This document shows, one piece after another, positions 1-49,473 of a DNA stretch of 49,473 bases (the first letter of the stretch is position 1; each line of letters begins with the position of its first letter). A program made the translations under genes and the position numbers. The notes under the pieces were generated by a model. It searched no databases. It had not been told where the DNA came from and saw only the letters and a list, made by a program, of their open reading frames with translations. The stretch comes from Gammaproteobacteria bacterium (GTDB lineage: Bacteria; Pseudomonadota; Gammaproteobacteria; GRL18): assembly GCA_027012135.1 (NCBI GenBank), contig JALUZF010000269.1, positions 1-49,473 on the forward strand, written 5' to 3'.

Positions 1-176
1 ACTTAGAAGGGCTTAATACAAAACAGCATTAATGTTACATACACTTGGAACAAGCTAAATTTTGTTGTAGTATAAAAATCATTAGTTCCAAAAATAACCA
101 AAAATCATGTCAAATTTACTATAAACATCTCAGTTAAAAACATTACAGATCAATTCTTTTAATAAATGGACTTACC

Positions 177-1010: not shown

Positions 1011-1014
1011 AACA

Positions 1015-2430: not shown

Positions 2431-2451
2431 TTACAATGTATAATATGACAA

Positions 2452-2529
2452 GTATTGGTATCAATACGTACATTTATATATTTTCTGTAGTTCTTCATAA
2501 TCTGCCGTCTTTTCTCTGTTATAAAAGAC
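2452..2529. terminator. Two small hairpins between convergent genes
   Basis: Two inverted repeats lie between the stop of the exported protein and the 3' end of the ABC permease operon. The first is GTATTG-GTAT-CAATAC (2452-2467). The second is GTCTTTT, nine bases, AAAAGAC (2507-2513 / 2523-2529). Either could end transcription, the second from both sides. Stems are short, so this is tentative. The rest of 2431-2616 shows nothing else. Confidence 0.35.
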
Positions 2530-2616
2530 CTCAATATTTTTAAATATCAACTACTTAGTTCCCTAGTTCTAAATTTCTGATGATGTACCCGCTCAGTTTT
2601 CAGGTTATAAAAAACT

Positions 2617-3726: not shown

Positions 3727-3732
3727 TATGAT

Positions 3733-7711: not shown

Positions 7712-7892
7712 TGGGGTTCCGTAGAGATTTATTATTAAATTTTTTTAATGAGGACTTTTAAATTTCAATACTATCACCTTGCAAATCCATTACAAGGGTA
7801 AACTGTTATTTATGATAATAGTATAACAATAAGGTGTACGGTTCAGTAACCTATATTACAAAAAAGGTTATATAAAAAGAAATGTTATGTGG

Positions 7893-7917
7893 AAGTGCGG
7901 GCAGAATTCCCGCACTT
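7893..7917 (-). terminator. Hairpin terminator after mlaA
   Basis: Perfect 9-bp stem AAGTGCGGG (7893-7901) and CCCGCACTT (7909-7917) with a 7-base loop, 18 bases past the mlaA stop on the minus strand. Read leftward, the stem is followed only loosely by T-rich sequence (ACATTTCTTTTTATA some 10 bases later). The rest of 7712-7935 is AT-rich and probably holds the promoter of the ABC exporter operon. Confidence 0.6.
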
Positions 7918-7935
7918 AGTGGTAAATAAAACAAT

Positions 7936-32243: not shown

Positions 32244-32654
32244 TTAACTTCCTCCGGAAGTCAAAATCATATCAACCAATGCCAGCAGTGAACACCCGGA
32301 CAGAAAAATGCTCAGTGTTTTTACCACCCATACCGGCATTAAATCCACTTCAAGATGAGCCATCTGAACATGAAGGTGGTTATAGCGCCAGGCGGAAATT
32401 AAAAAAGCGGCTGCACTAAAAAATAATAAGATAATAGTGACCACCATTAACGGCCATACCGGTTCAATATCATTCATGAATTTATTAATACCCAGGCCGG
32501 ATATTAAAGCGGCAAGCCCGGTTCTGATCCATGCCTGGTAAGTTCTTTCATTGGCCAGTACGGTTCGATCAATAGCCAGACTGTTTCTATCCGGTTCATT
32601 TACTTTCGAATTGTTTGATTCTAACTTATCCGAACTGTTCTGTGTTAATGACAA
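32244..32654 (-). CDS. DUF202 (YidH-type) small membrane protein
   Basis: Protein of 136 aa with the DUF202 motif RTVLANERTYQAWIRTGLAALISGLG and then three hydrophobic helices. I place the start at the TTG at 32654, after AGAGG at a spacing of 9. A longer form starting at ATG 32729 would add 25 residues overlapping the end of glgP. It is the last gene of the yvlD-xfp-glgP operon. Function is unknown; YidH-like proteins are often annotated only as membrane proteins. Confidence 0.8.
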   Translation of the reverse strand: MSLTQNSSDKLESNNSKVNEPDRNSLAIDRTVLANERTYQAWIRTGLAALISGLGINKFMNDIEPVWPLMVVTIILLFFSAAAFLISAWRYNHLHVQMAHLEVDLMPVWVVKTLSIFLSGCSLLALVDMILTSGGS

Positions 32655-32682
32655 GATCGCTATCCTCTGGTGGCCTGAGTCA

Positions 32683-35184
32683 TTAATGTTGCCATAGAAT
32701 AAGATTGCACTCCAGTGGTACCACAACATCAGGATGATATGGAATAACTCTCAGAGTATAATCTTCAACAGGACGATGTGCCTGTATTTCAAGCCTGTAA
32801 AGATAACTGTTTACTGCACCAATAAGCGTTTCCATGCGTTGCAGAGTATGTCGTTCAGGTTCTTCCTTCTCTGCTGCTTCAGCATACAGCTCTACTTTTA
32901 TAAATTCAGGATTCAGCTCACCCAGGTAAAGCTGTACTTTAAATTCAATATTCTGCGGGTTCTGCAGGATTTCCAGGTTACTGAAATGAATAGCAGACCA
33001 GTATTGCCGGATTTGTCTATGCCAGTCATGAATTATCCTGGCCTGTTGCCCCTTATTATCACAGCGCTGATACCATTGTTCGGCCAGCGGCAGGTAATAA
33101 TTTTCAGTATATTCACGCAACATACGATTGGTAGAAAACTGAGGGGTCAGCTCAGCCATGCTGTGGCGCATTAATTTTAACCATTGTTCTGGAATGCCCT
33201 GCTGATTACGTTGATAAAAAGCCGGGATTATTTTCTGCTCCAAGGTATCATAAAGAATTTCAGCCTCATGGGCATCCCAGGCCGGATCGCTGTCATGTTC
33301 CTGACCGTCACCCAGCGCCCAGCCGACATTTTCGTTATACGCTTCAGCCCACCAGCCATCCAGTTCAGCGAAATTCAGGCCGCCGTTCACCAGAACTTTC
33401 ATACCACTGGTTCCACTGGCTTCCCAGGGGCGACGGGGGGTATTAAGCCATAAGTCAACGCCAGCAACCAGTTGCTCTGCAATCAGTAAATCATAATCAA
33501 CCAGAAAAACCAGATGTTTACCCAGCTTATAATCCTGGATAAAACGGATCCATTGCTGAATCAATGTCTGGCCCTTAAAATCTTTAGGATGAGCCTTACC
33601 GGCAATAACAATCTGAACGGGTTGATCAAACCGGGTTAGCAGGCGGGCAAGACGGTCAGGATCATGTAATAGAAGGTTAGGGCGTTTGTAGGTGGCAAAG
33701 CGGCGGGCAAACCCCAGGGTAAGCACATTGGGATCAAGTACATCACCATCAGACTCATAAATGGCCTGATGTTCAGGCTGACGCTGACGGATCCACTGGA
33801 TTAAATTAAGTCGGTTATTCAGGCGCATTTCCCAGAGCCTGTCATCCGGGAGTTCCATAATGGATGCCCGTAATGCCTGTAGTTCCTCTCGCCAGCGTTC
33901 CTTACCGCAAACCTCTGTCCACAGCTGATCCGATTTAGCGGAATCCCAGCTGGGGATATGAACACCGTTGGTAATATGTCCCACGGGAACTTCAGCTGCG
34001 GGCCAGCGTGGAAACAGGCTCTGAAAAAGTGTCCGGCTGACCTTGCCGTGTAATTTACTTACGCCATTCACGGCGATGCTGCCGTGAATGGCCAGCCAGG
34101 CCATATTAAAGGCTTCATGGGAGTTTGTCCGGGACTTACCAAGTACCAGTATCTCAGATAGATCAATACCGCAATGTTCTGCCCAGGGGGATAAATAATA
34201 CTGGACGAGTTTATTATCAAAACGGTCAAAACCGGCTTCAACAGGTGTATGGGTTGTAAACAGATTACCTGCACGGGTTGCCATTAGCGCGGTACTGAAA
34301 TTCACATCCTGTTCCTGCATGAACAACCTGGCACGTTCAAGAATAGCGAAGGCGGCATGGCCTTCATTTAGATGACAGACTTCCGGCTGCAGACCCAGTT
34401 GATTTAACAGGCTGTAACCACCAATACCTAATACCATTTCCTGTTTTAAACGTAATTCTGTATCACCACCGTATAGTTCACTGGTGATCCCCCGGTCGGC
34501 AGGATTATTAAGTGGATCATTACTATCAAGCAAATAAAGGGTAATGCGACCAATCTGTACCTGCCAGGTGCGAAGGCGAAGAAGCCGACCGGGAAACTGA
34601 ATACTGATGTTAAGCCATTCACCGTTTTCATCACGTACCGGTGTTACCGGCATCTGGCTCGGATCATTAAAGGGATAAAATTCTCTCTGTTCTCCCTGGC
34701 GATTAATAGTCTGGCGAAAATAACCCTGCTGATACAGCAGGCCGACAGCCACCAGGGGAATACCCAGATCGTTAGAGGTTTTCAGATGATCACCGGCCAG
34801 TACACCCAGTCCGCCGGAATAAAGGGGCAGTGCTTCACTGAGACCGTATTCCATGCAAAAGTAGGCGACTAGATTAAGATGACTTTGGGGATACTTCTGG
34901 CTAAACCAGGTTTCACGGTTTAGTGCAAAATTCTGTTCGTCGTGCAGTTGCTTTAACAGCTGATTAAAATGTTTGTCCTGGACCAGTTCATTAAGTCGTT
35001 TTATACTTACAGTCTGCATAATCATCCACGGATTATGCGTTTGCTGCCATAATTTATTATCAATGCAGGACCAGAGCTGATCCGCTACATGACTCCATGA
35101 CCAGCGAATATCCAGGGCCAGACGCCGTAAATCACTTAACTGTGCAGGCAGATCCGGGCGCAGTTCATAAGGCAGGGTATTCAT
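32683..35184 (-). CDS. glgP: Alpha-glucan (glycogen) phosphorylase
   Basis: Glycosyltransferase 35 enzyme of 833 aa. It releases glucose 1-phosphate from glycogen using phosphate and pyridoxal phosphate. The N-terminus (about 1-110) is the DUF3417 type of short alpha-glucan phosphorylases. The cofactor Lys is Lys 596 in EASGTSGMKVLVN. Catalytic surroundings HLNEGHAAFAI, FTTHTPVEAGFD and NGVHIPSW are intact. It starts 3 bases after the phosphoketolase stop and shares the operon; glucose 1-phosphate must be isomerised elsewhere, since no phosphoglucomutase is in the window. Confidence 0.95.
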   Translation of the reverse strand: MNTLPYELRPDLPAQLSDLRRLALDIRWSWSHVADQLWSCIDNKLWQQTHNPWMIMQTVSIKRLNELVQDKHFNQLLKQLHDEQNFALNRETWFSQKYPQSHLNLVAYFCMEYGLSEALPLYSGGLGVLAGDHLKTSNDLGIPLVAVGLLYQQGYFRQTINRQGEQREFYPFNDPSQMPVTPVRDENGEWLNISIQFPGRLLRLRTWQVQIGRITLYLLDSNDPLNNPADRGITSELYGGDTELRLKQEMVLGIGGYSLLNQLGLQPEVCHLNEGHAAFAILERARLFMQEQDVNFSTALMATRAGNLFTTHTPVEAGFDRFDNKLVQYYLSPWAEHCGIDLSEILVLGKSRTNSHEAFNMAWLAIHGSIAVNGVSKLHGKVSRTLFQSLFPRWPAAEVPVGHITNGVHIPSWDSAKSDQLWTEVCGKERWREELQALRASIMELPDDRLWEMRLNNRLNLIQWIRQRQPEHQAIYESDGDVLDPNVLTLGFARRFATYKRPNLLLHDPDRLARLLTRFDQPVQIVIAGKAHPKDFKGQTLIQQWIRFIQDYKLGKHLVFLVDYDLLIAEQLVAGVDLWLNTPRRPWEASGTSGMKVLVNGGLNFAELDGWWAEAYNENVGWALGDGQEHDSDPAWDAHEAEILYDTLEQKIIPAFYQRNQQGIPEQWLKLMRHSMAELTPQFSTNRMLREYTENYYLPLAEQWYQRCDNKGQQARIIHDWHRQIRQYWSAIHFSNLEILQNPQNIEFKVQLYLGELNPEFIKVELYAEAAEKEEPERHTLQRMETLIGAVNSYLYRLEIQAHRPVEDYTLRVIPYHPDVVVPLECNLILWQH

Positions 35185-35187
35185 AAA

Positions 35188-37578
35188 TTACTCCCGATGA
35201 TTATCGGTTGGCCAGGTCCAGTTTTTAATTTCAGGCATATCCTCTCCATATTTTATTATGTATTCCTGGTGTTCAATGAGTTTGTCATTCATTGCCTGAT
35301 GAATATGGCCGGCCCGATCGTTTAATGACTCAACCCGGTCAGCAACATCTATTACCAGGTGAAAGCGGTCCAGTTTATTACGCACAACCATGTCAAAAGG
35401 TGTGGTGGTTGTGCCTTCTTCTATATAACCCCTAACATGAAGATTATGACTGAATACACGCCGATAGGTCAGTCGATGTATTAACCAGGGGTAGCCATGA
35501 AAAGCAAAAATTACAGGAATGTCTGTTTCAAACAGGGCATTAAAATCTGAATTAGTCAGACCATGGGGATGTTCTTCATGCGGCTGCAGGGTCATTAGAT
35601 CCACTACATTAATAACCCGGATCTTAATTTCCGGTGCATACTGGTGCAGTAAATCCACAGCAGCCATAGTTTCCAGCGTCGGTACATCTCCACTGCAGGC
35701 CAAAATAATATCCGGCCTGGAATCCTGATCATTACTGGCCCATTCCCAAATCCCGATGCCTGCAGAACAATGCTTAACGGCCTGTTCCTTGTTCAACCAC
35801 TGCAGTTCCGGTTGTTTACCGGCGACAATAATATTCACCAGGTTTTTTGAATTAAGGCATTTATGGGTGACATTTAACAGGGTATTAGTATCAGGCGGCA
35901 GATAAATGCGCACAATATCGGATTTTTTATTAACAACGTGATCAATAAAGCCCGGATCCTGGTGAGAAAAACCATTATGGTCCTGACGCCAGACATGTGA
36001 AGTTAAGAGTATATTCAGGGAGGCAATATCCGCCCGCCAGGCAATTTCATTACACACTTTTAACCACTTGGCATGCTGATTAAACATGGAGTCAACAATA
36101 TGAATAAAGGCTTCATAGCAGGAGAAAAAACCGTGTCGCCCTGTCAGCAGATAGCCTTCCAGCCAGCCCTGGCAGGTATGTTCAGAAAGAATTTCCATTA
36201 CCCGTCCATCGACAGCAAGGTGATCGTCATAGCTGAACAGTTCTGCAGTCCAGGCCCGGTTGGTGACTTCAAACAGTGCGGATAAACGGTTGGAAGCTGT
36301 TTCATCGGGTCCCATAACTCTGAAATTGGCTTCTTTGGCATTTAAGGTCATGATGTCCCTGAAATATTCGCCCATATGCCGGGTTGCCTCACCATAGCTT
36401 GTGCCCGGCTGCTCAATTTCCAGACAATAATTACTATAATCAGGCAAGTGCAGGGGTTTTAATAACAGACCACCATTGGCATGGGGATTAGCACCCATGC
36501 GTAATGTACCTTCCGGTGCCAGGTCTCTGATGCAGGCTAAGGGACGGCCGTCCGTATCAAAAAGTTCTTCCGGCTTATAGCTTTTCATCCAGCTTTCCAG
36601 AATTTTAATATGTTCCGATTGCCTGACATTGGGTATAGGTACCTGATGTGCACGCCAGTAGCCTTCAACTTTCAAACCGTCAATTTCTTTTGGGCCTGTC
36701 CAGCCTTTTGGTGTTTTAAGAATGATCATGGGCCAGCGGGGCAGCCTGGTATCACCGTTTTCCCTGGCATTTTTCTGGATAGTCTTAATTTGAGCAATGA
36801 CAGTATCCATAGCAGAGGCCATTAACTGATGTATTTTCTCCGGATCATCACAATCAACCAGACAGGGCTGGTAGCCATAACCTTCAAATAAATGCATTAA
36901 ATCTTCGGTATCAATACGAGCAAGTACCGTAGGATTGGCAATTTTATAACCGTTAAGATGCAGGATGGGTAAAACCGCTCCGTCCTGTACCGGATTAAGA
37001 AATTTATTACTATGCCAGGAGGTGGCCAGGGGGCCGGTTTCCGCTTCACCATCACCTACTACACAGACTGCCAGCAGATCAGGATTGTCAAAGACCGCAC
37101 CAAACGCATGGGACAGAGAATAACCTAATTCACCGCCTTCATTGATAGAACCGGGAGTTTCCGGTGCACAGTGACTGGGAACACCGCCGGGAAATGAAAA
37201 CTGCTTAAAAAGCTTTTTCATCCCGGTTTTATCCTGAGATACTTCAGGATAAATCTCGCTATAGCTGCTTTCCAGCCAGGTACTGGCAACCAGTGCCGGA
37301 CCGCCATGACCCGGCCCGGTAATAAAAATAGTATTTAATGATTCACGATTTATAATACGGTTAACATGGGCATAAATAAGATTTAGTCCCGGCGTAGTCC
37401 CCCAGTGCCCCAGACAACGGGGTTTGATATGCTCGGCCTTAAGCGGTTGCTCAAGCAGAGGATTGTCCATAAGAAATATCTGCCCGGCAGATAAATAATT
37501 AGCGGCGCGCCACCAGGCATGAATATTCTGAACCTCATCATCGGTTAAAGGGTTCTGTGTTGAATTGGTATTGTCCAT
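35188..37578 (-). CDS. xfp: Xylulose-5-P/fructose-6-P phosphoketolase
   Basis: Thiamine diphosphate-dependent enzyme of 796 aa. It splits xylulose 5-phosphate or fructose 6-phosphate with phosphate into acetyl-phosphate and a shorter sugar phosphate. Family signature 1 ([15 protein letters not shown]) and signature 2 ([15 protein letters not shown]) are intact, as are GHGGPALVA and the catalytic His region HCAPETPG. Length is as usual. Acetyl-phosphate would need acetate kinase or Pta, neither in the window. It heads the xfp-glgP-DUF202 run, after yvlD. With glgP it could turn stored glycogen to acetyl-phosphate without pyruvate dehydrogenase. Confidence 0.97.
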
Positions 37579-37640
37579 AATAGTTCACCGGAAATTAAAA
37601 TTGTTAGGGATCAGAACGCTTGAATATAAAGCAACAGAAT

Positions 37641-38045
37641 TTACATTTGAAACGCCGGATGCATATTATTCATCTGCAACCAGAATACGTTGTCAAATAA
37701 AAACCACTGTATAAAAATAAAACCGGTAATAACCAGTAATATCATAATAACCGTTGCCAGCAGGGCGCTGGCAAAATTATCCACTTCAAAGCCTGGTACG
37801 ATCATTGATGTCAGCTGGATCATAAAGGCATTAACAAATAGCGCAAACAGGCCAAAGGAAAGTACGGTCAACGGCCAGGTCAGAAACCACAGCAGGGGAC
37901 GGATAAAGGCATTCATCAGGCCAAGGATAAGAGAAGCCAGAAACAGGTCGCCAGCAGAACGAACCCGGATACCCGGTACAATCGCAGTGATAATCAGTAA
38001 GCCAATGGTGCTGAATAACCAGAGGATCAGAATTCCGAATATCAT
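37641..38045 (-). CDS. YvlD/phage-holin 4 family membrane protein
   Basis: Inner-membrane protein of 134 aa with four hydrophobic helices. It fits the DUF360/YvlD-type family, often called phage holin family protein: early helix, RPLLWFLTWPLTVLSFGLF, and a VNAFMI..TSMIVPGF stretch. Members are usually about 110-120 aa; this has a C-terminal aromatic/Met tail. It is upstream of xfp in the same direction, 62 bases apart. Its start is only 19 bases from a MITE-like element, so its leader, and perhaps its promoter, lies inside that element. Confidence 0.8.
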   Translation of the reverse strand: MIFGILILWLFSTIGLLIITAIVPGIRVRSAGDLFLASLILGLMNAFIRPLLWFLTWPLTVLSFGLFALFVNAFMIQLTSMIVPGFEVDNFASALLATVIMILLVITGFIFIQWFLFDNVFWLQMNNMHPAFQM

Positions 38046-38064
38046 TAATAGGGCACCTTTGAAG

Positions 38065-38150
38065 TAGTCTCTGTCCGGAAATTACCTTCCTGGCAATGAT
38101 CCGAAACGTAAATGAAAAAACGTGTGTATCAATAAATGGATGCACACCAG
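38065..38150. repeat. MITE-like element, copy 1
   Basis: 86 bp that match the element at 46210-46300. The first 31 bases differ at only 4 positions, and the last 20 bases differ at 1 (AATAAATGGATGCACACCAG). The middle is diverged. No reading frame is carried. It lies between the divergent yvlD-like gene and crp-like gene, close to the former. The remainder of 38151-38525 is AT-rich promoter DNA, with one palindrome described separately. Confidence 0.65.
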
Positions 38151-38384
38151 CCAGGCGGTAAATAAGAGCTATAGTACTATTTTAACGGGCAAACTTAAAC
38201 AGAGCATTTATTATTATCTGAAATGTACTTAATAATATTATTGACCATAAAATTCATTATTAATTCAGTATTCCTGATACTGTTTGCATCATATTACTCC
38301 TTTAAAGATTAAACAGTATATAATAATATAAAGTGAAGGTTTGTACTTTATAGCATAAGTATTACCTATAATGATAAAATCAAT

Positions 38385-38400
38385 TGTCATTTATATGACA
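38385..38400. promoter_or_regulatory. Crp/Fnr-type palindrome TGTCA-N6-TGACA upstream of regulator
   Basis: TGTCATTTATATGACA is a palindrome with 6-base perfect arms, 125 bases before the crp-like start. The layout (5-base half-sites, 6-base spacer) is that of Crp/Fnr family sites, but the half-site TGTCA differs from TGTGA (Crp) and TTGAT (Fnr). A second TGTCA-N6-TGACA occurs at 39314-39329, beyond the regulator gene. It may be its own autoregulatory site. Confidence 0.55.
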
Positions 38401-38525
38401 CCAGAATTATTTATGCACAGAAGCCGGTTGTAGTTTGACTCTATTTTGATTCTAATTGAGTATTTAACAATAACCGAGGGATAAGGTAAAAACAATTCAA
38501 TTACTTATAAGATAAAACGCTTTAT

Positions 38526-39275
38526 ATGAATGCTGATTCACCCCTTTATAATCATTATAAAAATGAACTGTCAAAATCACCTATATTCAGTGGTTTGTCT
38601 GAACAGCTCCTGGATAATATGCTTGAGCAGTTTCAATATACTACCTGGCGGCGTACCAATATTTCCAGTAGTACCGCCTTAATGGAACGTTTCCATCTTA
38701 TTATTAATGGACGAGTTAAAATTGAACATATTGATCCCCAATCCGGTGATCAGGTCACACTTTTTATTCTTGGTTCAGGAGACGGGTTTGATGTTATTTC
38801 CTTACTGGACGGGAAACCCAGGGATATCAGGGCGGTGGCTATTGAAGATCTCCATCTTCTTACAGCACATACCCAAACCGTACGGGAGTGGATAAATCAT
38901 TACCCGGAATTTAATATTAATTTTCTGCCTTATCTGGGTGTCCAGATGCGCACCATGGAAACCCTGGCAGCCGATCTGGCTACCAAAGATACTATAACCC
39001 GCCTGGCTCGATTAATTTTACGCCATACGGCTCATAATAACCATCACTCGGAAAATAACAGGGCAAAAAACAATCATCATCAAATAAAATTAATTCATGA
39101 TTTATCCAATACAGCACTGGCACAAATGATTGGCTCCACCCGTCAGGTGGTTAACCATCACTTGCAGGCATTAAGACATAAAGGCATTCTTATTAACCAG
39201 TCTAAAAATCTGGCCATAAAGGAACTGGAAGGCTTACATGAAATTGCGGATAAGTTTTTATCCCGTAATAAATAG
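38526..39275 (+). CDS. Crp/Fnr-family transcription regulator
   Basis: Regulator of 249 aa. The cyclic-nucleotide-binding-like domain is about residues 20-130, the dimer helix about 135-166, and the winged helix-turn-helix about 190-235 with recognition helix STRQVVNHHLQALRHKG. No Fnr-type Cys cluster is seen, so it is not an Fe-S sensor of that kind; the usual cAMP residues are also not obvious. A His/Asn-rich insert (residues about 167-186, HTAHNNHHSENNRAKNNHHQ) precedes the DNA-binding domain and could bind metal. It lies between the xfp-glgP operon and the rightward stress/carbon genes and probably controls both. The palindromes flanking it fit that. Confidence 0.88.
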   Translation: MNADSPLYNHYKNELSKSPIFSGLSEQLLDNMLEQFQYTTWRRTNISSSTALMERFHLIINGRVKIEHIDPQSGDQVTLFILGSGDGFDVISLLDGKPRDIRAVAIEDLHLLTAHTQTVREWINHYPEFNINFLPYLGVQMRTMETLAADLATKDTITRLARLILRHTAHNNHHSENNRAKNNHHQIKLIHDLSNTALAQMIGSTRQVVNHHLQALRHKGILINQSKNLAIKELEGLHEIADKFLSRNK

Positions 39276-39313
39276 ACGATGCTTTTTTTAGTCTCTGGAA
39301 ATTCTTTTTTGAG

Positions 39314-39337
39314 TGTCATATGCCTGACACTCAGGCA
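39314..39337. promoter_or_regulatory. Second TGTCA-N6-TGACA site, overlapping another hairpin
   Basis: TGTCATATGCCTGACA (39314-39329) lies inside GAGTGTCA-TATGCC-TGACACTC (39311-39332). A second inverted repeat, TGCCTGA-CAC-TCAGGCA (39321-39337), overlaps it. The two hairpins cannot form together. The first keeps the spacing of the site at 38385. It could be the terminator of the regulator gene, an operator for the next gene, or both. Confidence 0.5.
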
Positions 39338-39410
39338 GGCCGGCTGATTTTATAATTATTCTTCTGGATCATATTGTGTGCTTAACAGACAAGATAGCAG
39401 GAGACAGGGC

Positions 39411-39829
39411 ATGTACCGGGATATTAGCAATGATAATAATAGTTGCGTTGCTATTTATAAAATCCTCTCTGAAGTAGAACAGAGCATAAGACAGTTGAGC
39501 CAATCAGACTTTGATTTAACTCACTTATCCATTCTGGCTAACGGCTATCATAGACATGAAAATATTATAGGTTATTATAATACCGGTGAGCAGATTAGAT
39601 TCTGGGGCCAGCAGGGGGCTTTCTGGGGTAGATTATGGCGTCAGTTGTCAGGTTCAGCTTTTTTCTGGATTCCGGGCATTGGGCCTCTTGCTGTTGGCGG
39701 CCCCCTGGCAGGTTTTTAGTTATAATTCATGGCGATCAGGACGAAGTGTTTCGAGCCGGTGATCTTCTGAGAAGCAATAAAGAGACGGATATATCCGTAC
39801 ATATAAAAACCAATTTCATAAAGAGCTGA
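39411..39829 (+). pseudogene. Broken stress-protein gene with internal deletion and frameshift
   Basis: A frame from the ATG at 39411 (ribosome site GGAGACAGG) reads 102 codons and stops at TAG 39717-39719, after GIGPLAVGGPLAG. Immediately behind, another frame reads FLVIIHGDQDEVFRAGDLL, ending at 39829. From memory of the family (YflT/DUF1269-like membrane proteins of about 165-175 aa), the first part matches the N-terminal half and the second the C-terminal end, so about 50 residues are missing at a GGCAGGTTTTTAG junction together with a frame change. I infer an ancestral gene that was deleted internally. A longer GTG-start frame from 39378 exists but has no support. Confidence 0.7.
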
Positions 39830-39923
39830 GTTATTACTTAGCAATAACACTTAACAATAAATAGCATTATAATGACCTTTTCCCGGTGTAGATTCCGGCT
39901 TACCCATTATGAGGAAATAAACC

Positions 39924-40460
39924 ATGTCAGATCTGCTCAGCAACAATGATTTACTTAAATCCGCACACAAATCTTTTTTTACCATAGGTGGACTTCTGAT
40001 AATACTGGGTGGTGTGGGTATCTTCCTGCCGAATCTGTTATCAATGGCCATTGAAATATTTCTTGGCTGGCTGATGTTGTCAGGGGGTATCTTATGGGCC
40101 TGGTATACCTACCAGTGGTACAGGGGCTTTAATAACTGGCTGAAACCTCTCATCCTTATAGCGGGCGGCATCTTATTACTGGTCTACCCTGTAACCGGGA
40201 TCGCGGCTATAACCCTGATGATAGCCTTTTACCTGTTTATTGATGCCTTTGGCAGCTTTGCTCTGGCATTACAGCGTCGGCCGATGTCCGGCTGGTTCTG
40301 GTTAATTATTAATGCCGTTATTTCACTATTGCTGGCCTTATTGCTACTTACGGGCTGGCCTGTAACTTCTCCAATCTATCTTGGCATTATTGTCGGTATC
40401 AGCCTGTTGTTTGATGGTTTAACTTTAATCATGTTAGGCTGGGCAGTTAAACCGGAATAA
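39924..40460 (+). CDS. HdeD-family (DUF308) membrane protein
   Basis: Inner-membrane protein of 178 aa, with six hydrophobic helices. The GGLLIILGGVGIFLPNLLSMAIEIFLGWLML opening, then repeats of small-residue helices with PVTGIAAITLMIAFYL, fit the HdeD/DUF308 family. HdeD in E. coli gives acid resistance at high cell density; role here unknown. It lies next to ppsA in the carbon/stress island, with its own ribosome site (GAGGAAA) and about 95 bases upstream. Confidence 0.85.
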   Translation: MSDLLSNNDLLKSAHKSFFTIGGLLIILGGVGIFLPNLLSMAIEIFLGWLMLSGGILWAWYTYQWYRGFNNWLKPLILIAGGILLLVYPVTGIAAITLMIAFYLFIDAFGSFALALQRRPMSGWFWLIINAVISLLLALLLLTGWPVTSPIYLGIIVGISLLFDGLTLIMLGWAVKPE

Positions 40461-40541
40461 TACCGATATCGAGTATATCATGAGCCTCAATTCCTATCTT
40501 AATAATTTTTTATCTCCATTTACAACCAGGTACTTATTATT

Positions 40542-42962
40542 ATGAGCATGAAATCACCCGCCTATATTCAATGGTTTAAAGATCTCGGTATCAATGATGT
40601 GCCCCTGGTCGGCGGTAAAAATGCATCGCTGGGAGAAATGTATCGTAGTCTTACTCCGGAAGGGATCAAAGTTCCCAATGGCTTTGCTGTTACTGCACAG
40701 GCCTACCGGGATATGCTAGACCAGGCAGATGCCTGGCCGCAACTGCATAAGCTATTAGATAATGTTGATAAGTCCGATGTGGATGATCTGGCCGAACGTG
40801 CTCATAAAGCCAGAGAACTTGTTTATGGTATTGGTTTTTCTGAAATCTTACGAGAGCAGGTTCTACAGGCTTATCATGCTTTAATTGAAGAATATGGAAA
40901 TGATCTGACCCTCGCGGTACGCAGTTCTGCAACCGCTGAAGATCTGCCTACCGCCAGTTTTGCCGGACAGCATGATACCTATCTGCATATCAAGGGCGAT
41001 GAAATGCTTATTGATGCCTGTCGCCGTTGTTTTGCCTCCTTATTTACTGAACGTGCCATTGCCTATCGTCTTGATAAGGGATTTGATCATTTTAAAGTCG
41101 CCCTGTCCATTGGTATTATGAAAATGGTGCGCTCGGATCTGGATGCCAGCGGGGTAATGTTCAGCCTGGATACTGAATCCGGATTTCGAGATGTGGTATT
41201 TATTACCGGCTCCTATGGCCTGGGTGAAAATATCGTACAGGGGGCTGTTGATCCGGATGAATTTTACGTACATAAAACCGGCTTAAACAGGGGCTACAGG
41301 GCAGTATTAAGACGTAACCTGGGTGAAAAGAAAATAAAAATGGTTTATGCCCATGCCCGAAGTGCCCAGACTACACGCAATATTCCCACCCCCAAAGCGG
41401 ATCAGGAGCGTTTCTGTATCAGTGATGAAGACGTACTCACACTGGCTGAATATGCCATTAAAATAGAAAACCATTATACCCGGGAGGCGGGTCAGTCCAG
41501 ACCGATGGATATGGAATGGGCTCGGGATGGAGTGGACGGCAAGCTTTATCTAGTTCAAGCCAGGCCTGAAACTGTGGCTTCCCAGAAAACTGGCACCAGT
41601 CTGGAAGAATACCGGCTTAAGGGTAAAGGGCCGTTGCTGGTTTCCGGACGTTCTGTCGGCAGCAAGATAGCGACTGGTCGGGCACGAATTATTTCTGATG
41701 TCCATCACCTTGCTGAATTTCAACCCGGAGAAATTCTTATTGCTGATATGACTACCCCTGACTGGGGACCTGTTCTGAAAATTGCTGCCGCTATTGTCAC
41801 AAACCGGGGAGGGCGCACCTGTCATGCTGCCATTGTTGCCAGGGAACTGGGTATACCTGCAGTGGTCGGAGCCGATGATGCTACAGAGATTATTAACGAT
41901 GGTGAAATGATCACAGTTTCCTGTGCTGAAGGTGATGAAGGCCGAGTCTATCAGGGTGAACTGCCCTATGATGTTGAAGTGACTGATCTTAAAAATATTC
42001 AGACACCTGCAACTAAAATTATGCTTATTCTGGGCAATCCTGATCTGGCATTTAAAAGCAGTTTTCTGCCCAATGACGGTGTCGGGCTGGCCCGGATGGA
42101 ATTTATTATTAATGATGAAATCAAAGCCCATCCCATGGCGCTTATTCATCCGGAAAAAGTTCAGGATGATAATGAACGTAAACAGATAGAACAATTAACT
42201 AAAGGCTATGATAATCCAGCCGATTTTTTTATTGAACGGCTTTCTGAAGGGGTAGGCACGATTGCCGCGGCATTTTACCCTAAACCGGTTATTGTGCGTA
42301 TGTCTGATTTTAAAACCAATGAATACGCTTCCTTATTAGGCGGCCGCTGGTTTGAACCTGAAGAAGATAATCCCATGCTCGGGTTTCGAGGTGCTTCCCG
42401 CTATTATCATCCTGATTATGCTGAAGGTTTTGCCCTGGAATGTGCAGCCATGAAACGGGTCAGGGATATCATGGGGCTGGACAATGTCAGGCTGATGATC
42501 CCGTTCTGCCGACGAGTTAAGGAAGGTGAACAGGTACTTGAAGTAATGGCTTCTCATGGTTTAAAGCGCGGTGAAAACGGCCTTGAAATCTATGTTATGT
42601 GTGAAATACCTAATAATGTTATCCAGATTGATGCCTTTGCTCAGTTATTTGACGGTTTTTCTATTGGCTCTAATGATCTAACCCAGCTAACATTGGGTGT
42701 GGATCGGGATTCTGATATTGTTGCTTTTGATTTTGATGAACGTGATAACGGTGTTAAGGAAATGATAAGGCTGGCGGTTGAGGGTGCCAGACGCAATCAG
42801 AGACATTCCGGTCTGTGCGGCCAGGCTCCATCCGATTATCCTGAAATGGCAGAGTATCTGGTTGATATTGGAATTGATTCTATCAGCCTTAATCCAGACA
42901 CGGTCATTAAAACCATACTGCATGTACTGGACGTTGAAAAAAAGTTAAATAAAAAGTTATAG
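40542..42962 (+). CDS. ppsA: Phosphoenolpyruvate synthase
   Basis: PEP synthase (pyruvate, water dikinase), 806 aa. It makes PEP, AMP and phosphate from pyruvate and ATP, feeding gluconeogenesis. N-terminal ATP-grasp-like domain (about 15-345) opens with VGGKNASLGEMY. The swivelling domain has phospho-carrier His 428 in GGRTCHAAIVARELGIPAVVG. The C-terminal PEP-binding barrel has GSNDLTQLTLGVDRDS and SGLCGQAPSDYPE with the catalytic Cys. Its length (about 790-800) excludes pyruvate phosphate dikinase. Two start codons, MSM, are possible; the first is used here. The next gene is the aldolase. Confidence 0.96.
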   Translation: MSMKSPAYIQWFKDLGINDVPLVGGKNASLGEMYRSLTPEGIKVPNGFAVTAQAYRDMLDQADAWPQLHKLLDNVDKSDVDDLAERAHKARELVYGIGFSEILREQVLQAYHALIEEYGNDLTLAVRSSATAEDLPTASFAGQHDTYLHIKGDEMLIDACRRCFASLFTERAIAYRLDKGFDHFKVALSIGIMKMVRSDLDASGVMFSLDTESGFRDVVFITGSYGLGENIVQGAVDPDEFYVHKTGLNRGYRAVLRRNLGEKKIKMVYAHARSAQTTRNIPTPKADQERFCISDEDVLTLAEYAIKIENHYTREAGQSRPMDMEWARDGVDGKLYLVQARPETVASQKTGTSLEEYRLKGKGPLLVSGRSVGSKIATGRARIISDVHHLAEFQPGEILIADMTTPDWGPVLKIAAAIVTNRGGRTCHAAIVARELGIPAVVGADDATEIINDGEMITVSCAEGDEGRVYQGELPYDVEVTDLKNIQTPATKIMLILGNPDLAFKSSFLPNDGVGLARMEFIINDEIKAHPMALIHPEKVQDDNERKQIEQLTKGYDNPADFFIERLSEGVGTIAAAFYPKPVIVRMSDFKTNEYASLLGGRWFEPEEDNPMLGFRGASRYYHPDYAEGFALECAAMKRVRDIMGLDNVRLMIPFCRRVKEGEQVLEVMASHGLKRGENGLEIYVMCEIPNNVIQIDAFAQLFDGFSIGSNDLTQLTLGVDRDSDIVAFDFDERDNGVKEMIRLAVEGARRNQRHSGLCGQAPSDYPEMAEYLVDIGIDSISLNPDTVIKTILHVLDVEKKLNKKL

Positions 42963-43135
42963 TAACGCTATAGTTAACAAGTAAATAACAAGTAAAAATT
43001 ATTTTTAATTTCATACTTGATAAGCATCATGGCATAAATGATAGCTTTAGTTTTATACTTAATTATTAGTTAATAAAGATCCACAACTATTGCCCTGATT
43101 TTTCCAGTTCCATTCTTTCAAACAGGAGTGCAACA

Positions 43136-44155
43136 ATGTCTATCCAAACTGAACTTCAACAGACCATTGAAGATATGATTGACAGTACGCGGGGTATTCT
43201 TGCTGCTGATGAAAGCAGCCCCACCATTGCCAAACGTTTTAAATCCATAAATGTTGAATCAACTGAAGAAAATCGCAGAGCCTATCGAAGCCTGATCCTC
43301 TCTACCCCTGATCTGGGAAAGTATATCTGCGGGGTGATTTTATTTGAAGAAACGCTGGCTCAGAAATCTGATGATGGAGTACCTTTACCTGAAGTTTGTA
43401 TTCAGCAGGGCATTGTGCCCGGAATAAAAGTAGATAAAGGTAAAATACCTTTGGCCAATGCGTCCGGTGAAGAAATCACCCAGGGTCTGGATGGCCTGGC
43501 ACAACGACTCGAACAGTATAAAACACAGGGTGCCCGTTTTGCCAAATGGCGAAATGTTTATCATATTTCAGACCGTACACCGACTCACCAGGCTGTTATT
43601 GCTAATTCAGAAGTACTGGCCCGTTATGCAGCCATCTGTCAATCCAAGGGTGTGGTGCCCATTGTTGAACCGGAAGTTCTGATAGACGGTGATCACACAA
43701 TTGAACGCTGCTCAGAAGTCAGCCAGTTTGTTTTTCATGAACTGTATCATGCCCTGCAACGCCATCATGTGGTTCTGGAGCATACTATTTTAAAACCCAA
43801 TATGATGGTTGCCGGAAAAAACTTCGCACATAAAGAATCGCCAGAACGGGTTGCTGAAGAGACTATTAAAATATTGCGCCGTACGGTACCGGCGGCTGTA
43901 CCCAGTATTAACTTCCTTTCTGGCGGTCAGACACCGGAAGAGGCTACGGCTAATTTAAATGCTATTAATCAAGCGGGATCACAGCCCTGGGAATTATCTT
44001 TTTCCTATGGCCGTGCTTTACAGCAACCCGCCCTAAAGGCCTGGCAGGGTAAAGCTGAGAACAGTGACAAAACACAGGCTGCACTGTTTCAGCGAGCCAG
44101 GCTTAATAGTCTGGCACGTACAGGCAAATATACTTCAGATATGGAAAATAACTAA
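43136..44155 (+). CDS. fba: Class I fructose-bisphosphate aldolase
   Basis: Schiff-base aldolase, 339 aa, of the eukaryote-like class I group. It joins or splits dihydroxyacetone phosphate and glyceraldehyde 3-phosphate. GILAADESSPTIAKRF near residue 20 and the Schiff-base region LEHTILKPNMMVAGK with Lys 220 (muscle Lys 229) are intact. It ends in SDMENN, not the tyrosine of animal aldolases. No metal ion is needed, unlike class II. With ppsA and enolase it completes pieces of gluconeogenesis or glycolysis. The 173-base gap before it has no clear operator. Confidence 0.95.
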   Translation: MSIQTELQQTIEDMIDSTRGILAADESSPTIAKRFKSINVESTEENRRAYRSLILSTPDLGKYICGVILFEETLAQKSDDGVPLPEVCIQQGIVPGIKVDKGKIPLANASGEEITQGLDGLAQRLEQYKTQGARFAKWRNVYHISDRTPTHQAVIANSEVLARYAAICQSKGVVPIVEPEVLIDGDHTIERCSEVSQFVFHELYHALQRHHVVLEHTILKPNMMVAGKNFAHKESPERVAEETIKILRRTVPAAVPSINFLSGGQTPEEATANLNAINQAGSQPWELSFSYGRALQQPALKAWQGKAENSDKTQAALFQRARLNSLARTGKYTSDMENN

Positions 44156-44182
44156 TATTGAAAATAACAAAGGACATTATTA

Positions 44183-45592
44183 ATGCATATTTCTTTTCAT
44201 GGTGCTGCAGAAAACGTTACCGGTTCCTGTCATTTGCTTGAATGTGCAGGCAAGCGGATCCTTATTGACTGCGGCATGTTTCAGGGCGGCAGGGAACTGG
44301 CGGAAGAAAACTTCGATGCCTTTGGCTTTGAGCCGGAATCCATCGATTATATTTTACTGACCCATGCCCACCTTGATCATTGTGGACGGATACCTTTGCT
44401 TGTTAAACGCGGATTTACCGGTGAAGTCATCACCACCCCGGCATCTGTAGAATTAGCCCGCCTGGTCATGCTTGATGCTGCTGGTTTGCAGGAAGAAGAA
44501 GCCCGCTACCAGCAACGCAAGGCCAAACGTCGTCACGGCAGCAACCATAACCATAAAAATGCCAATGAAATAGAGCCTTTATATACAACCCTGGATGCCC
44601 TAAACAGTCTGGAATTTTTTAAGCGAAGAGCTGCGTATAATGAGCCTGTAGATATTGCACCCGGTATTCGCGCAACATTCCTGGACGCTGGTCATATCCT
44701 GGGTTCGGCCAGTATATTTTTAGAACTTAAAGAGGGTGATCAGGAGCATCGCCTGTTATTTTCGGGTGATCTGGGTTATAGCAACCGGGCCATTTTACGT
44801 AATCCTGCAAAGCCGCCCGAAGTTGATACGGTTGTAATGGAAACCACCTATGGTGATCGACTGCATAAACAGCTGGAACCTTCTATTAGTGAACTTTACG
44901 ATATTATTAATACTACCGTAGGTCGTGGTGGTAATGTGATCATTCCCACTTTTGCTCTGGAGCGTGCCCAGGAAATTCTCTATTACTTAAGAGAGGGGGT
45001 TTATGCAAAAAAAATTCAGCACTATACGACGGTATTTCTTGATTCCCCCATGGCTATTTCCGCCACTGAAATTTTCAGAAGACATCCTGAATGTTATGAT
45101 GCAGACACCATGAAAATATTTGATAAGGGAAATGATCCCTTTTACATACCCGGTCTGCATTTTACCCGTGAAACCTCTGAATCCATGGCTATAAATATGG
45201 TAGAGAGTGGGGCCGTTATTATGGCCGGTTCCGGTATGTGTACTGGCGGCAGAATTCGTCATCACCTTAAACATAATTTGTGGAATAAACATAATAGCAT
45301 TGTATTTGTTGGTTATGCCGCTCAGGGCACACTGGCACGGCGTATTGTTGATGGAGCTGATACGGTTAAAATCTTTGGTGAAGTGATCCCGGTAAAAGCC
45401 GATGTGTATACAATCGGTGGTTTTTCTGCCCATGCGGATCAGGCTGAATTACTGCAATGGCACAGCCAGACCGGTAACCCGGCAACCACATTCCTGGTAC
45501 ACGGGGAAGAAAAAAGTATGCATGTGTTTGCTAAAAAGCTACAGAATTACAATGTAAAAATTCCAGAACTGCATCAGAAATATACTTTATAA
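44183..45592 (+). CDS. Metallo-beta-lactamase fold hydrolase with beta-CASP domain
   Basis: Protein of 469 aa in the MBL-fold RNA metallo-hydrolase family (CPSF73/YSH1-like). The zinc motif HAHLDH has His 61, His 63, Asp 65 and His 66, followed by the later His and Asp ligands (DAGHILGSAS and FSGDLGY). A beta-CASP domain (about 230-350) is followed by GTLARRIVDGA and a final GGFSAHADQAELLQW with C-terminal His motifs. The expected activity is RNA processing or decay, but family members in such carbon/stress islands lack a proven role. It is 27 bases after the aldolase. Confidence 0.92.
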   Translation: MHISFHGAAENVTGSCHLLECAGKRILIDCGMFQGGRELAEENFDAFGFEPESIDYILLTHAHLDHCGRIPLLVKRGFTGEVITTPASVELARLVMLDAAGLQEEEARYQQRKAKRRHGSNHNHKNANEIEPLYTTLDALNSLEFFKRRAAYNEPVDIAPGIRATFLDAGHILGSASIFLELKEGDQEHRLLFSGDLGYSNRAILRNPAKPPEVDTVVMETTYGDRLHKQLEPSISELYDIINTTVGRGGNVIIPTFALERAQEILYYLREGVYAKKIQHYTTVFLDSPMAISATEIFRRHPECYDADTMKIFDKGNDPFYIPGLHFTRETSESMAINMVESGAVIMAGSGMCTGGRIRHHLKHNLWNKHNSIVFVGYAAQGTLARRIVDGADTVKIFGEVIPVKADVYTIGGFSAHADQAELLQWHSQTGNPATTFLVHGEEKSMHVFAKKLQNYNVKIPELHQKYTL

Positions 45593-45657
45593 TAATCTTG
45601 CACTTATAAGGCACTAATTTTTACTTTCTAAACAATAAATCAGGAGATTTAACAATA

Positions 45658-45846
45658 ATGACTGATATGCAGCATATAGAAATTAACCGTTATAAAGATG
45701 AAATCATAGATGATGTTAAACAGTTAATTGAAAAATATCGAAAAGCTATGGACTGGGATATCCCTGAAAATGATGATAAAAAATCAGACCGGGTTATTTT
45801 TGAAGCTATTGAAACAGCTCTTGCACAAATAAAAAAAGACAGCTGA
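45658..45846 (+). CDS. Small protein of unknown function
   Basis: Protein of 62 aa, helical and charged (YKDEIIDDVKQLIEKYRKAMDWD followed by an acid-lysine rich stretch and a second helix). It has a good ribosome site (CAGGAGAT) before its ATG and follows the MBL gene by 65 bases, so it is probably expressed. I recognise no family. Confidence 0.6.
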   Translation: MTDMQHIEINRYKDEIIDDVKQLIEKYRKAMDWDIPENDDKKSDRVIFEAIETALAQIKKDS

Positions 45847-45877
45847 TCTGAATAAAACCCTATCGATACCCTTGGAG

Positions 45878-45896
45878 CGTGGGCATTTTGCCCACG
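45878..45896 (+). terminator. GC-rich hairpin after the small gene
   Basis: CGTGGGCA (45878-45885), TTT, TGCCCACG (45889-45896): a perfect 8-bp stem 31 bases past the stop of the small gene. No T run follows. The GGAGCGTG next to it is the reverse complement of the CACGCTCC in the repeat at 12529-12536, so it may be a repeat-derived terminator. Confidence 0.5.
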
Positions 45897-45940
45897 TACT
45901 CAATAATATCCAATCTCATTCACTTGTCTAAAAGATTCTT

Positions 45941-46199
45941 ATGGATTTTGACTATGCTGACTATTTTGAGGAATCCAATACGGCCAGTGGCTATGAAACC
46001 CTGATTATGATTGGGTGATGCACCTTGTTTAAACGCGCTGATAACATTGAAGACTGCTGGGAATTTTTTTCCAATCTATTCTGGATGTCTGGAAGTCCTT
46101 ACCACCCCGTGACTTTCCCAATTATCCTGCGGTAGCAATGGCCCGGAAGAGGCTGATGAACTTTTAGCCCGGGATGGTTTTAGCTGGAAAAACAAGTAG
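45941..46199 (+). pseudogene. zwf: C-terminal remnant of glucose-6-phosphate 1-dehydrogenase
   Basis: Read by frame, the piece spells MDFDYADYFEESNTASGYET LI, then (after frame changes) TLFKRADNIEDCWEFF, SILDVWKSLPPRDFPNYPA and SNGPEEADELLARDGFSWKN. This matches the C-terminal ~85 residues of Zwf. At least four single-base indels break it: a TGA after MIG with a compensating loss within 8 bases, an extra T in GAATTTTTTTCC, and a missing G before AGCAATGGC. The frame ends at TAG 46197-46199. The upstream ~400 residues are absent; the sequence before 45941 shows no match by eye. The fragment is directly followed by a MITE-like element. Confidence 0.85.
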
Positions 46200-46209
46200 T
46201 TAACCTTGT

Positions 46210-46300
46210 TAGTGTCCATCCGAAAATTACCTTCCTGGCACTTGTGAAACGCAAAAGAGAAAGAGGTGATTTTTCCAGGTTAATAAATGGATGCACACTA
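46210..46300. repeat. MITE-like element, copy 2
   Basis: 91 bp bordered by TAGTGTCCATCC (46210-46221) and GGATGCACACTA (46289-46300), near-perfect inverted ends (11 of 12). It matches copy 1 at 38065-38150. It encodes nothing. Its right end provides the stop codon (CTA, read as TAG on the minus strand) of the small gene at 46298-46516, and its left end begins 10 bases after the zwf remnant. Confidence 0.7.
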
Positions 46301-46516
46301 GTTTTTTCCAAAAGCATGACAGGTATCTATAACTTTCCAGCGACGATTTTCATTGTTCGGTGTATGTTTACAGATCCAGTTTTCAGCTTCTTCAGAAGTG
46401 TTAAAATTTAAATAATCATTGCTATCGGGGTCGGTCACAAATGACCAGCCTAATAAGCCAAACTTTTCTACACGGTATATTCCGCTATCTTCGTTAAAAA
46501 CTTTTCGATATAACAT
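46298..46516 (-). CDS. Small protein of unknown function, possibly truncated by a repeat
   Basis: Protein of 72 aa with no signal or helix of note. It has tryptophans (GLLGWSF, ENWICKH, RRWKVID) and two Cys, and no family I recognise. Its stop codon is in the terminal repeat of the MITE-like element, so its natural C-terminus may have been longer. A ribosome site (GGAGGAGTAT on the minus strand) precedes its ATG, which supports expression. Between it and heme O synthase (46517-46648) I see nothing else. Confidence 0.6.
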   Translation of the reverse strand: MLYRKVFNEDSGIYRVEKFGLLGWSFVTDPDSNDYLNFNTSEEAENWICKHTPNNENRRWKVIDTCHAFGKN

Positions 46517-46648
46517 AATTATACTCCTCCATTAAACAAGAAACTTTATTATTTAATAATATTGGTTGAGTTTGAAATATTTCAAGCTATTAAGGGTGAT
46601 GAAGGTTACAAATAATGACCATTAAGCGGCAGATTATTAATCTTTTTA

Positions 46649-47605
46649 TTAACTTTGAATTTGGAGATATAAGAAGTGATCGGCAAGTAAAAAGCCAAAT
46701 AATAGCATTAAGTAGATAATTGAATACCCAAAGAGGCGCATGGCTCCCTGGTTTTCAGGACTATAATAGAGACGATAGACATAAAATCCAAATAAGACAT
46801 TTAGTCCTAATACGGAAATAAAATAAGCCAGACCACTCATGCCAACCAAAAAAGGTAAAAGAGTAACCATAAACAACAGTCCGGAATAAATTACTATTTG
46901 TTTTTTTGTGTAGGCAATACCATGGGTAACCGGCAACATGGGGAACTCGGCTTTTCGATATTCCTCAACTCGCTGGATTGCCAATGGCCAGAAATGCGCA
47001 GGTGTCCAGAAAAAAATGATGGCAAATAAAATAATTGCTTCAATACTGACTTCTCCCGTCATTGCAGTCCAGCCTAACAAAGGGGGGACTGCACCGGCCG
47101 CACCGCCCCAGACAATATTTTGCGGTGTGGTTCGCTTTAAAAACATAGTATAGATAACTGCATAGCCCACCATGGCAATAAAGGTTAACAGAGTGGTCAA
47201 TGGATTGGTTTGCCAGAGCAGGATAGAGATCCCAAGTATCATCCAGACCATGGCAACTAAAAAAGCGTTGGTTCGGTTTAGTCGTCCCGTAGGTAAAGGA
47301 CGTTGGTGGGTGCGATTCATTTTAGCATCGGCATAATGATCGACAATATGGTTAATAGCTGCACCCGCAGAAGACATGAATCCAATACCGAGAGTTGACC
47401 AGAATATTTTAAGCCAGGGAAGATAGCTAAATTGATAGGGAAGCGCGAGAATCATACCAACAAACGTCGTGAACATAATAAGCATTACAACCTTAGGTTT
47501 CCCCAGTTCGTAAACGGCTCTTATTCTTTCAATATAGTCACTGGCGTGGCTATTGACACTGACCCTGTTAGCTATGAAAGCATTGATTCTCAGTATTTTC
47601 TGCAT
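46649..47605 (-). CDS. ctaB: Heme O synthase (protoheme IX farnesyltransferase)
   Basis: UbiA-family prenyltransferase of 318 aa with nine or so helices. It converts heme B to heme O for cytochrome oxidases. The first Asp-rich motif, NHIVDHYADAKMNRTHQRPL, is intact, as is the second region near HFWPLAIQRVEEYRKAEFPMLPV. It is the third gene after fccA and fccB on the minus strand, 24 bases from fccB. No oxidase gene is nearby. Alternative internal Met starts exist, but the first gives the usual length of about 300. Confidence 0.94.
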   Translation of the reverse strand: MQKILRINAFIANRVSVNSHASDYIERIRAVYELGKPKVVMLIMFTTFVGMILALPYQFSYLPWLKIFWSTLGIGFMSSAGAAINHIVDHYADAKMNRTHQRPLPTGRLNRTNAFLVAMVWMILGISILLWQTNPLTTLLTFIAMVGYAVIYTMFLKRTTPQNIVWGGAAGAVPPLLGWTAMTGEVSIEAIILFAIIFFWTPAHFWPLAIQRVEEYRKAEFPMLPVTHGIAYTKKQIVIYSGLLFMVTLLPFLVGMSGLAYFISVLGLNVLFGFYVYRLYYSPENQGAMRLFGYSIIYLMLLFGFLLADHFLYLQIQS

Positions 47606-47629
47606 AAAAAATGATACTTAATGGTTATT

Positions 47630-48952
47630 TTATTCAAAAATATCTTTGCGGAAAGTTCGCTGCCAGTTTTCAGCCACTTGTTGTCGGATGATCTGTTTGG
47701 CTTTATTAGATTCTGGCCCCAGGATATGATAGTGCTCCCCTAATTTTTTGCCTTTGCCGGCATAACGGAAGGTTTCAGATAAAGCCATTCCATAATCCTT
47801 ACCGGCCATTGCAACACAGTCGTTAATAATGAATGGCGTACCCACCTCTCGTCCATGCAGTTCATCATTAATGGCCTGGGCAACAACCCGTGCCTGATTG
47901 CTGGCTATATAGCCAGTTTTTGGCATGGGGTCGCCATCTACACTATCACCAATGACATAAACATGATCCTGTTTAAAAGAACTGAAGTCTAAAAAGTCAA
48001 CAGGGCACCAGTCACCCTCAGACAGATCATTCTGCAAGGCAAACTGTCCTGCCTTTTCCGGTGGAATAATATTAATAACATCGCCCTTGTGAACATGCCC
48101 GTCTGCCGTAATGACTGAATGATTAGTTGCATCAAGTTTTACTACCTGGCCGCCATCTTTTCTGGGCACCCATTCAATCATGCTTTGGTCCGTACCGTAA
48201 CCAAAACGATCTTTCCAGTAAACAGGGTAGACATTGGAAAAAATAAAGTCATTTTTACTATCGAGAATCAATACTTTTGCGGTAGGATTATTTTCTTTTA
48301 GCATCGCTGTAATATATGAGGCACGTTCATAAGGTGCAGGAGGGCAGCGATAGGGATCTTCAGGTGAAGAAATAATAACCGTCCCGCCTTTTTTCATGGA
48401 GAAAAGTTGATTATGTAAATTCATTGTTTGACGGCCAGCCGTATAGGCTGAGGGAAAATCCCCTTCAGCCAGTGTATCGTTAAAGCCGTCTATGGCTTCA
48501 TAATTATGCGTAGGGCCTGGAGAAACTATGAGTTTGTGATAACTCAGAATATCGCCTTTTTCCAGCTTCAACTGTTTTTTGTCGTAGTCTATGGTGGCCG
48601 CTTTATCATGAATAACATTAATATGATAACGGGATTTTAAAGTGCTATAGGTGACCATCAAATCTTCCAGTGTCACCCAGCCCGGTAATACTTCATTACT
48701 GCCGGGACAGAAAATATATTGAGATTTTGGCTCAACAATTGTAATTTTAACATCGGCATTGAGCAATCGAAGATATTTGGCGGCTGCTGCTCCGCCGATA
48801 CCGCCGCCAACAATTACAATATGAGCTGCACTTTTTGAGAATGCTTTGCTGGATGCTCCGAATAATCCATAAGATGCAGCGCCTGCACCTAATATGCGTA
48901 GCATTTGACGACGAGTGATACCGGCTTTTTTATTCAGATTTTTGTTATCCAT
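47630..48952 (-). CDS. fccB: Flavocytochrome c sulfide dehydrogenase flavoprotein subunit
   Basis: FAD-dependent sulfide oxidoreductase of 440 aa. A twin-arginine signal is visible (TRRQMLRILGAG, Arg 14-15), so it is exported folded. A GGGIGG Rossmann motif is at residues 49-54. The Cys pair expected at the active disulfide is Cys 203 (YRCPPAPYER) and Cys 316 (WCPVDF), matching the Allochromatium FccB positions. FAD-end motif VIGDSVDGDPMPKTGY follows. It transfers electrons from sulfide to the heme subunit encoded just upstream, in the periplasm, yielding polysulfide or sulfur. Confidence 0.93.
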   Translation of the reverse strand: MDNKNLNKKAGITRRQMLRILGAGAASYGLFGASSKAFSKSAAHIVIVGGGIGGAAAAKYLRLLNADVKITIVEPKSQYIFCPGSNEVLPGWVTLEDLMVTYSTLKSRYHINVIHDKAATIDYDKKQLKLEKGDILSYHKLIVSPGPTHNYEAIDGFNDTLAEGDFPSAYTAGRQTMNLHNQLFSMKKGGTVIISSPEDPYRCPPAPYERASYITAMLKENNPTAKVLILDSKNDFIFSNVYPVYWKDRFGYGTDQSMIEWVPRKDGGQVVKLDATNHSVITADGHVHKGDVINIIPPEKAGQFALQNDLSEGDWCPVDFLDFSSFKQDHVYVIGDSVDGDPMPKTGYIASNQARVVAQAINDELHGREVGTPFIINDCVAMAGKDYGMALSETFRYAGKGKKLGEHYHILGPESNKAKQIIRQQVAENWQRTFRKDIFE

Positions 48953-48957
48953 ATTGA

Positions 48958-49401
48958 TTACTCAGCCTCTTTTTTCATTTTTGCCCATTCAGGTACAACC
49001 AGATCCATATGGTTTTTTTTATGCCTCAGAGGCACGGCTTTCTGTTTAGCAAAGAAACCCGCCATGGCTTCAATTTCCTCATCGGTTAAGGGCTGCGTGA
49101 TGATCCCCATAACAATAAAATGACTTGCATCCTGGGTTTTATATTCCTGCATCTTGTCAATAAACTCCTGCTTATCCATGCCAGCCAGAGGAGGAATAAT
49201 ATCGTTGAATTCTGTCCCAAACGTACCATGACATGCAGAACATTGAGCCGCTAAAAGCCAGGGAGAAGGCATAGGAAATTGCTTAGCGAGCTCAAAATTT
49301 TTTTTAAGCGTTATGCCTCCTATCATATCGTCTGAAGCCAGGGAATTGGAACTGCTCAGACTGCCTGTAATAAGCAAAAGAGGAAATAAAAGCTTTTTCA
49401 T
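48958..49401 (-). CDS. fccA: Cytochrome c subunit of sulfide dehydrogenase
   Basis: Periplasmic monoheme cytochrome c of 147 aa. A signal peptide ends at about residue 22 (LAS). Heme attaches at CSACH (Cys 54, Cys 57, His 58), and Met 98 (FIVMGI) is a candidate distal ligand. The C-terminal helix region LTDEEIEAMAGFFAKQ is typical of class I cytochromes. It is 5 bases upstream of fccB in the same operon and is its likely electron acceptor. Dihaem FccA exists in Allochromatium; only one CxxCH is seen here. Sequence 49402-49473 should hold the promoter. Confidence 0.9.
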   Translation of the reverse strand: MKKLLFPLLLITGSLSSSNSLASDDMIGGITLKKNFELAKQFPMPSPWLLAAQCSACHGTFGTEFNDIIPPLAGMDKQEFIDKMQEYKTQDASHFIVMGIITQPLTDEEIEAMAGFFAKQKAVPLRHKKNHMDLVVPEWAKMKKEAE

Positions 49402-49473
49402 TTTCCAATCCTTATAAGATGCAAAAAAATATTTACTATACTAAATGTATTGAAGTGAACAAATCAATTAATA

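Follow-up and report, generated by a model that had tools for sequence, protein, structure and literature searches.

A decayed zwf remnant at the left edge of a putative inserted respiratory island in a gammaproteobacterial sugar-metabolism cluster

Genomic islands for ba3-type oxidase and heme A are the closest described counterparts of the respiratory genes reported here. Heme-A oxidases are served by two consecutive enzymes, heme o synthase and heme A synthase. The present locus resembles these islands by the combination of a ba3-like subunit I, subunit II, an SCO protein, a Cu ATPase and ctaA on one contig (C153) with ctaB in the window, the whole 49,473-nucleotide contig of the same gammaproteobacterial genome. 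Unlike them, it is distributed over two contigs and has REP-like palindromes at both edges, while no integrase, mobility gene or attachment site was seen at the island edges or in the parts read. The putative left edge carries a relic of zwf followed by a short element that can be compared to bacterial MITEs (Table 1).

Table 1. Coordinates of the features at the split of the cluster (window numbering).
Feature	Position	Strand	Remarks
smallORF1	45658..45846	+	62 aa; last gene collinear with the sister cluster; blastn collinearity with G004:C337 ends at 45857
REP-like palindrome	45870..45906	.	GTGGGCATTTTGCCCAC core at 45879-45895; left edge of the split
zwf relic	45941..46199	+	last ~85 codons including the stop; at least 5 indels, in-frame stops, 5' part absent
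MITE-like element	46212..46298	.	87-bp internally shortened copy; TIRs GTGTCCATCC / GGATGCACAC; flanks TTGTTA / TAGTTT
smallORF2	46298..46516	-	72 aa; stop codon overlaps the MITE end
ctaB, heme o synthase (protohaem IX farnesyltransferase)	46649..47605	-	NCBIfam TIGR01473; in the inferred inserted block
flavocytochrome c sulfide dehydrogenase flavoprotein-like	47630..48952	-	PF21706, E=1e-37
cytochrome c, probable partner subunit	48958..49401	-	PF00034; window and contig end 72 bp upstream of the start

The neighbours of the relic in the window code for alpha-glucan phosphorylase, phosphoketolase, PEP synthase and class I aldolase, the four enzymes that the first-pass annotation had assigned to the same island. 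In the sister genome G004 a single contig (C337; JALVDE010000337) carries, in this order, glgP, xfp, ppsA, fba, MBL, smallORF1, ETHE1 (reverse), an intact zwf, and genes for a HlyD-like protein and RND. Window positions 32581-45857 are collinear with the left part of this contig at 93% identity. Its right part, which begins with ETHE1, includes zwf and extends to RND, matches C153 at 94-95% identity. Since G004 is collinear first with the window and then with C153, the cluster is split between smallORF1 and ETHE1. Palindromes similar to the REP-like sequence of Table 1 are found on C153 at its split edge, immediately ahead of ETHE1; the unsplit intergenic region of G004 has one, and dispersed intergenic copies occur in the congener G003. 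The proposal that zwf once belonged to the cluster and was lost at a rearrangement point is borne out for membership and for the rearrangement by the sister order fba-MBL-smallORF1-ETHE1-zwf on one contig. It fails for the loss: the gene is intact on C153, in the sister arrangement ETHE1-zwf-RND. Judged by gene order, the cluster's own zwf is moved, not lost, and survives beyond the split.

Identification of the relic relies on protein and DNA matches. The Pfam domain G6PD_C (PF02781) is detected at window positions 45917-46081 (E=5.6e-5) despite the broken frame. Positions 45941-46193 align to the 3' end of the intact C153 zwf with 82% DNA identity over 263 columns (E=5e-67), and the relic is 81-83% identical to the intact zwf of three congeners. 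A full Zwf query in tblastn recovers residues 415-507 as three overlapping frame pieces (protein E=5.8e-18), in agreement with the translated similarity to Zwf expected at this site. Some 85 zwf codons had been read across at least four indels, with the remainder of the gene missing; five or more indels are indeed aligned (-1, -7, -1, +2 and -1, with an alternative +1/-1 pair relative to C153), and nothing precedes residue ~415. Similarity begins at the codons for MDFDYDDYF and reaches the end of the gene, the last zwf codon and the stop TAG (46197-46199) being kept, so that the first ~414 residues (~83% of zwf) are missing. Besides the two intact genes described below, tblastn with full Zwf found no loose zwf pieces, N-terminal ones included, elsewhere in the genome. 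An Rfam search over 45500-46700 returned only a sub-threshold chance match. Compared to zwf (TIGR00871, PF02781), the relic thus has a recognisable terminal segment close in DNA sequence to the copy of the same genome, but its missing 5' part, indels and in-frame stops mean that it cannot encode the enzyme. Read from its broken frame, it is a non-functional zwf pseudogene remnant, and it has no metabolic role. Biologically it is an ordinary pseudogene, and the presumed respiratory insert merits more attention than the relic.

The genome assembly (3.9 Mb in 325 contigs, rated 100% complete, 4.59% estimated contamination) contains zwf twice as a full open gene, on C153 (507 aa) and on C258 (506 aa). 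Both score above the TIGR00871 cut-off, and the C258 copy adjoins a full gnd. A decayed fragment sited in a sugar-metabolism cluster could be taken to mean that the only zwf of the cluster was destroyed there and that phosphoketolase took over the supply of sugar phosphates. Two intact zwf genes with one gnd, together with preservation of the cluster's own zwf on C153, leave this explanation next to no probability, and loss of zwf was rejected. The genome-wide search for full zwf and gnd that had been suggested as a check therefore ended with both genes found, gnd beside the C258 copy. The first-pass annotation had also proposed phosphoketolase as the main route for sugar phosphates if no other zwf exists; with two intact zwf genes that condition is false and the inference falls. 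This removes a tempting but wrong conclusion, that the oxidative pentose-phosphate route was lost and phosphoketolase is relied upon: the sugar metabolism of the bacterium is not rewired. We consider it likely that the relic, the split and the intact zwf elsewhere all hold jointly.

The congener G002 deserves a separate mention. Its only zwf match is partial (G002:C201:11828-12220; domain positions 165-296, E=3.5e-28) and has an in-frame TAG, and similarity of G002:C201 to the C258 region stops at this match. G002 may really be a genome without zwf, or its contig may be broken or chimeric.

The 82% identity between the relic and the C153 zwf might suggest a recent partial duplication of the latter, drifting since then as a dead copy. 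This is very improbable and was rejected on the third-position bias of their differences: mismatches at the three codon positions number 6, 4 and 24, with 24 of 34 at the third (binomial p=1e-5), while drift of a dead copy is expected to spread them evenly. Relative to the G005 zwf the corresponding counts are 3, 3 and 29 (29 of 35 at the third position; p=2e-9). Furthermore, over the relic's columns identity reaches ~97% between the zwf genes of C153 and G004, against ~85% for the relic. The third-position bias, in place of the even drift of a dead copy, traces the relic to a zwf functional for most of its separate history. Its substitution pattern indicates long evolution under coding constraint, with decay afterwards, and marks it as an extra zwf copy of long-diverged functional origin, not a recent duplicate. 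Identity of the relic to the zwf genes of the genus, all roughly equidistant from it, is 85-87%, and to those outside the genus 67-77%. In a tree it groups with the zwf genes of the genus with 88% support, its placement inside the genus having only 56%.

Beyond the relic, both sides of the split carry respiratory genes. On the C153 side, positions 1-9959 preceding the split code for oxidase subunit II, subunit I, a cytochrome c, a Cu-type heavy-metal P-type ATPase, an SCO-like protein, heme A synthase (ctaA) and an Fnr/Crp-type regulator. The best PDB matches of subunit I are ba3-type oxidase (E~1e-108); the SCO and cytochrome c products are putative assignments read from sequence, and the SCO-like protein has no NCBIfam match at 1e-20. 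The facing ends of the window and C153 are each the upstream region of a gene, the two genes being divergent, and no overlap was found between the right end of the window and the left end of C153. Five congener assemblies (G001-G005) were searched for this DNA. Window positions 46301-49473 have no DNA counterpart in them save 215 bp over smallORF2 (G005) and patches of 34-56 bp from distant FCSD paralogues, and C153:7399-9959, the stretch searched on that side, has none. Nor was a true ctaB found in the five assemblies, which gave only matches to UbiA-like proteins at 27-30% identity, or nothing. As completeness is only 91% for two of the five, absence refers to the assemblies searched. G004 keeps the flanks joined, and both ends of the presumed insert are visible here on two separate contigs, its middle falling in the unsequenced gap between them.

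The ctaB of the window complements the ctaA and ba3 oxidase genes of C153, ctaB and ctaA coding for sequential enzymes; the content of the two sides is thus in keeping with a single inserted module. The best reading is an inserted respiratory island whose left edge holds the relic, both sides probably belonging to a single insertion. A chimeric or contaminated assembly at ~45,860, which would turn the split and the relic into artefacts, finds some ground in the fragmentation into 325 contigs and the 4.59% contamination. Three observations make it improbable: two different contigs break the sister gene order at the same place, the genes beyond the break complement each other within one pathway, and the intervening MITE belongs to this genus while smallORF2 has a congener homologue. 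The latter, at 72% DNA identity, is found in G005:C598 only; smallORF2 has no Pfam match.

How the relic came to lie at this edge admits two explanations. In the one that we favour, the respiratory block would have inserted between smallORF1 and ETHE1-zwf, splitting the ancestral sugar-metabolism cluster, and the relic would be passenger DNA brought along from a related species whose block lay downstream of zwf. We infer this to be the most likely origin, with a confidence that stays somewhat short of an even chance. Among 80 zwf loci inspected with flanks of up to 9 kb, none has respiratory genes beside zwf, the arrangement expected of the donor. The second explanation is that an older zwf following smallORF1 was truncated from its 5' side when the block inserted, and that a second copy behind ETHE1 took over. 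The relic agrees in position and strand with the intact G005 zwf, which lies 116 bp after the smallORF1 homologue directly upstream of it; smallORF1 itself has no Pfam or NCBIfam match. The third-position-biased divergence of the relic also fits an old paralogue. We nevertheless judge such an in-situ remnant unlikely: no sampled genome has two genus-type zwf genes here, G004 has a single one after smallORF1 and no remnant, and the C153 and G004 zwf behave in the tree as the orthologue of the G005 gene. Passenger origin is preferred because the relic lies at the edge of DNA absent from the congeners and no sampled genome has two genus-type zwf genes at this place.

The third element of this junction is the repeat that the first-pass annotation had noticed close behind the fragment; it starts 12 bases past the relic stop. 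It is like bacterial MITEs in its shortness, its TIRs and the many copies present in the genus. In full copies of the family, TIRs GTGTCCATCC and GGATGCACAC, which are imperfect by one base, bound a stretch of 152-153 bp; most of these copies have 6-bp target duplications of the form TANNTA. The window copy is unlike them in being shortened to 87 bp and in having flanks that agree at 4 of 6 bases only; a decayed TAGTTA duplication could account for these flanks. The family has 25 matches in this genome and occurs in all five congeners searched, some of the matches being partial; none was found in G006 and G007, the two nearest other genera searched. Since the element lies 12 bases past the relic and supplies the stop codon of smallORF2, it probably inserted once relic and smallORF2 were already adjacent. 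We consider that the MITE probably inserted as a unit, which would have occurred after arrival of the block, just 3' of the zwf remnant. As the cutting agent of the truncation it is an unlikely candidate, given its position 3' of the stop and flanks that fit a decayed 6-bp duplication. Within the genus the copy number varies between 43 matches in G005 and 3 in G002. A second short member of the family is found at window 38065-38150, in the same cluster, intergenic on the xfp side.

The coding-then-decay pattern of the relic and the unsplit sister cluster suggest that insertion postdates the separation from G004, which points to an oxygen-respiration module acquired within the genus at a time that can be dated. 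A wider scenario, which we put forward tentatively and hold to be possible rather than probable, is that one species of a genus whose other sampled members lack ctaB gained a complete ba3-oxidase/heme-A/sulfide-dehydrogenase island by recombination between REP-like palindromes, the relic being donor DNA that records the source lineage. As a minor observation on these palindromes, a frame resembling the start of an IS200-like/RAYT transposase was read by eye in G005:C407 at ~7080-7204, ~200 bases past the intact zwf, and is possibly related to them.
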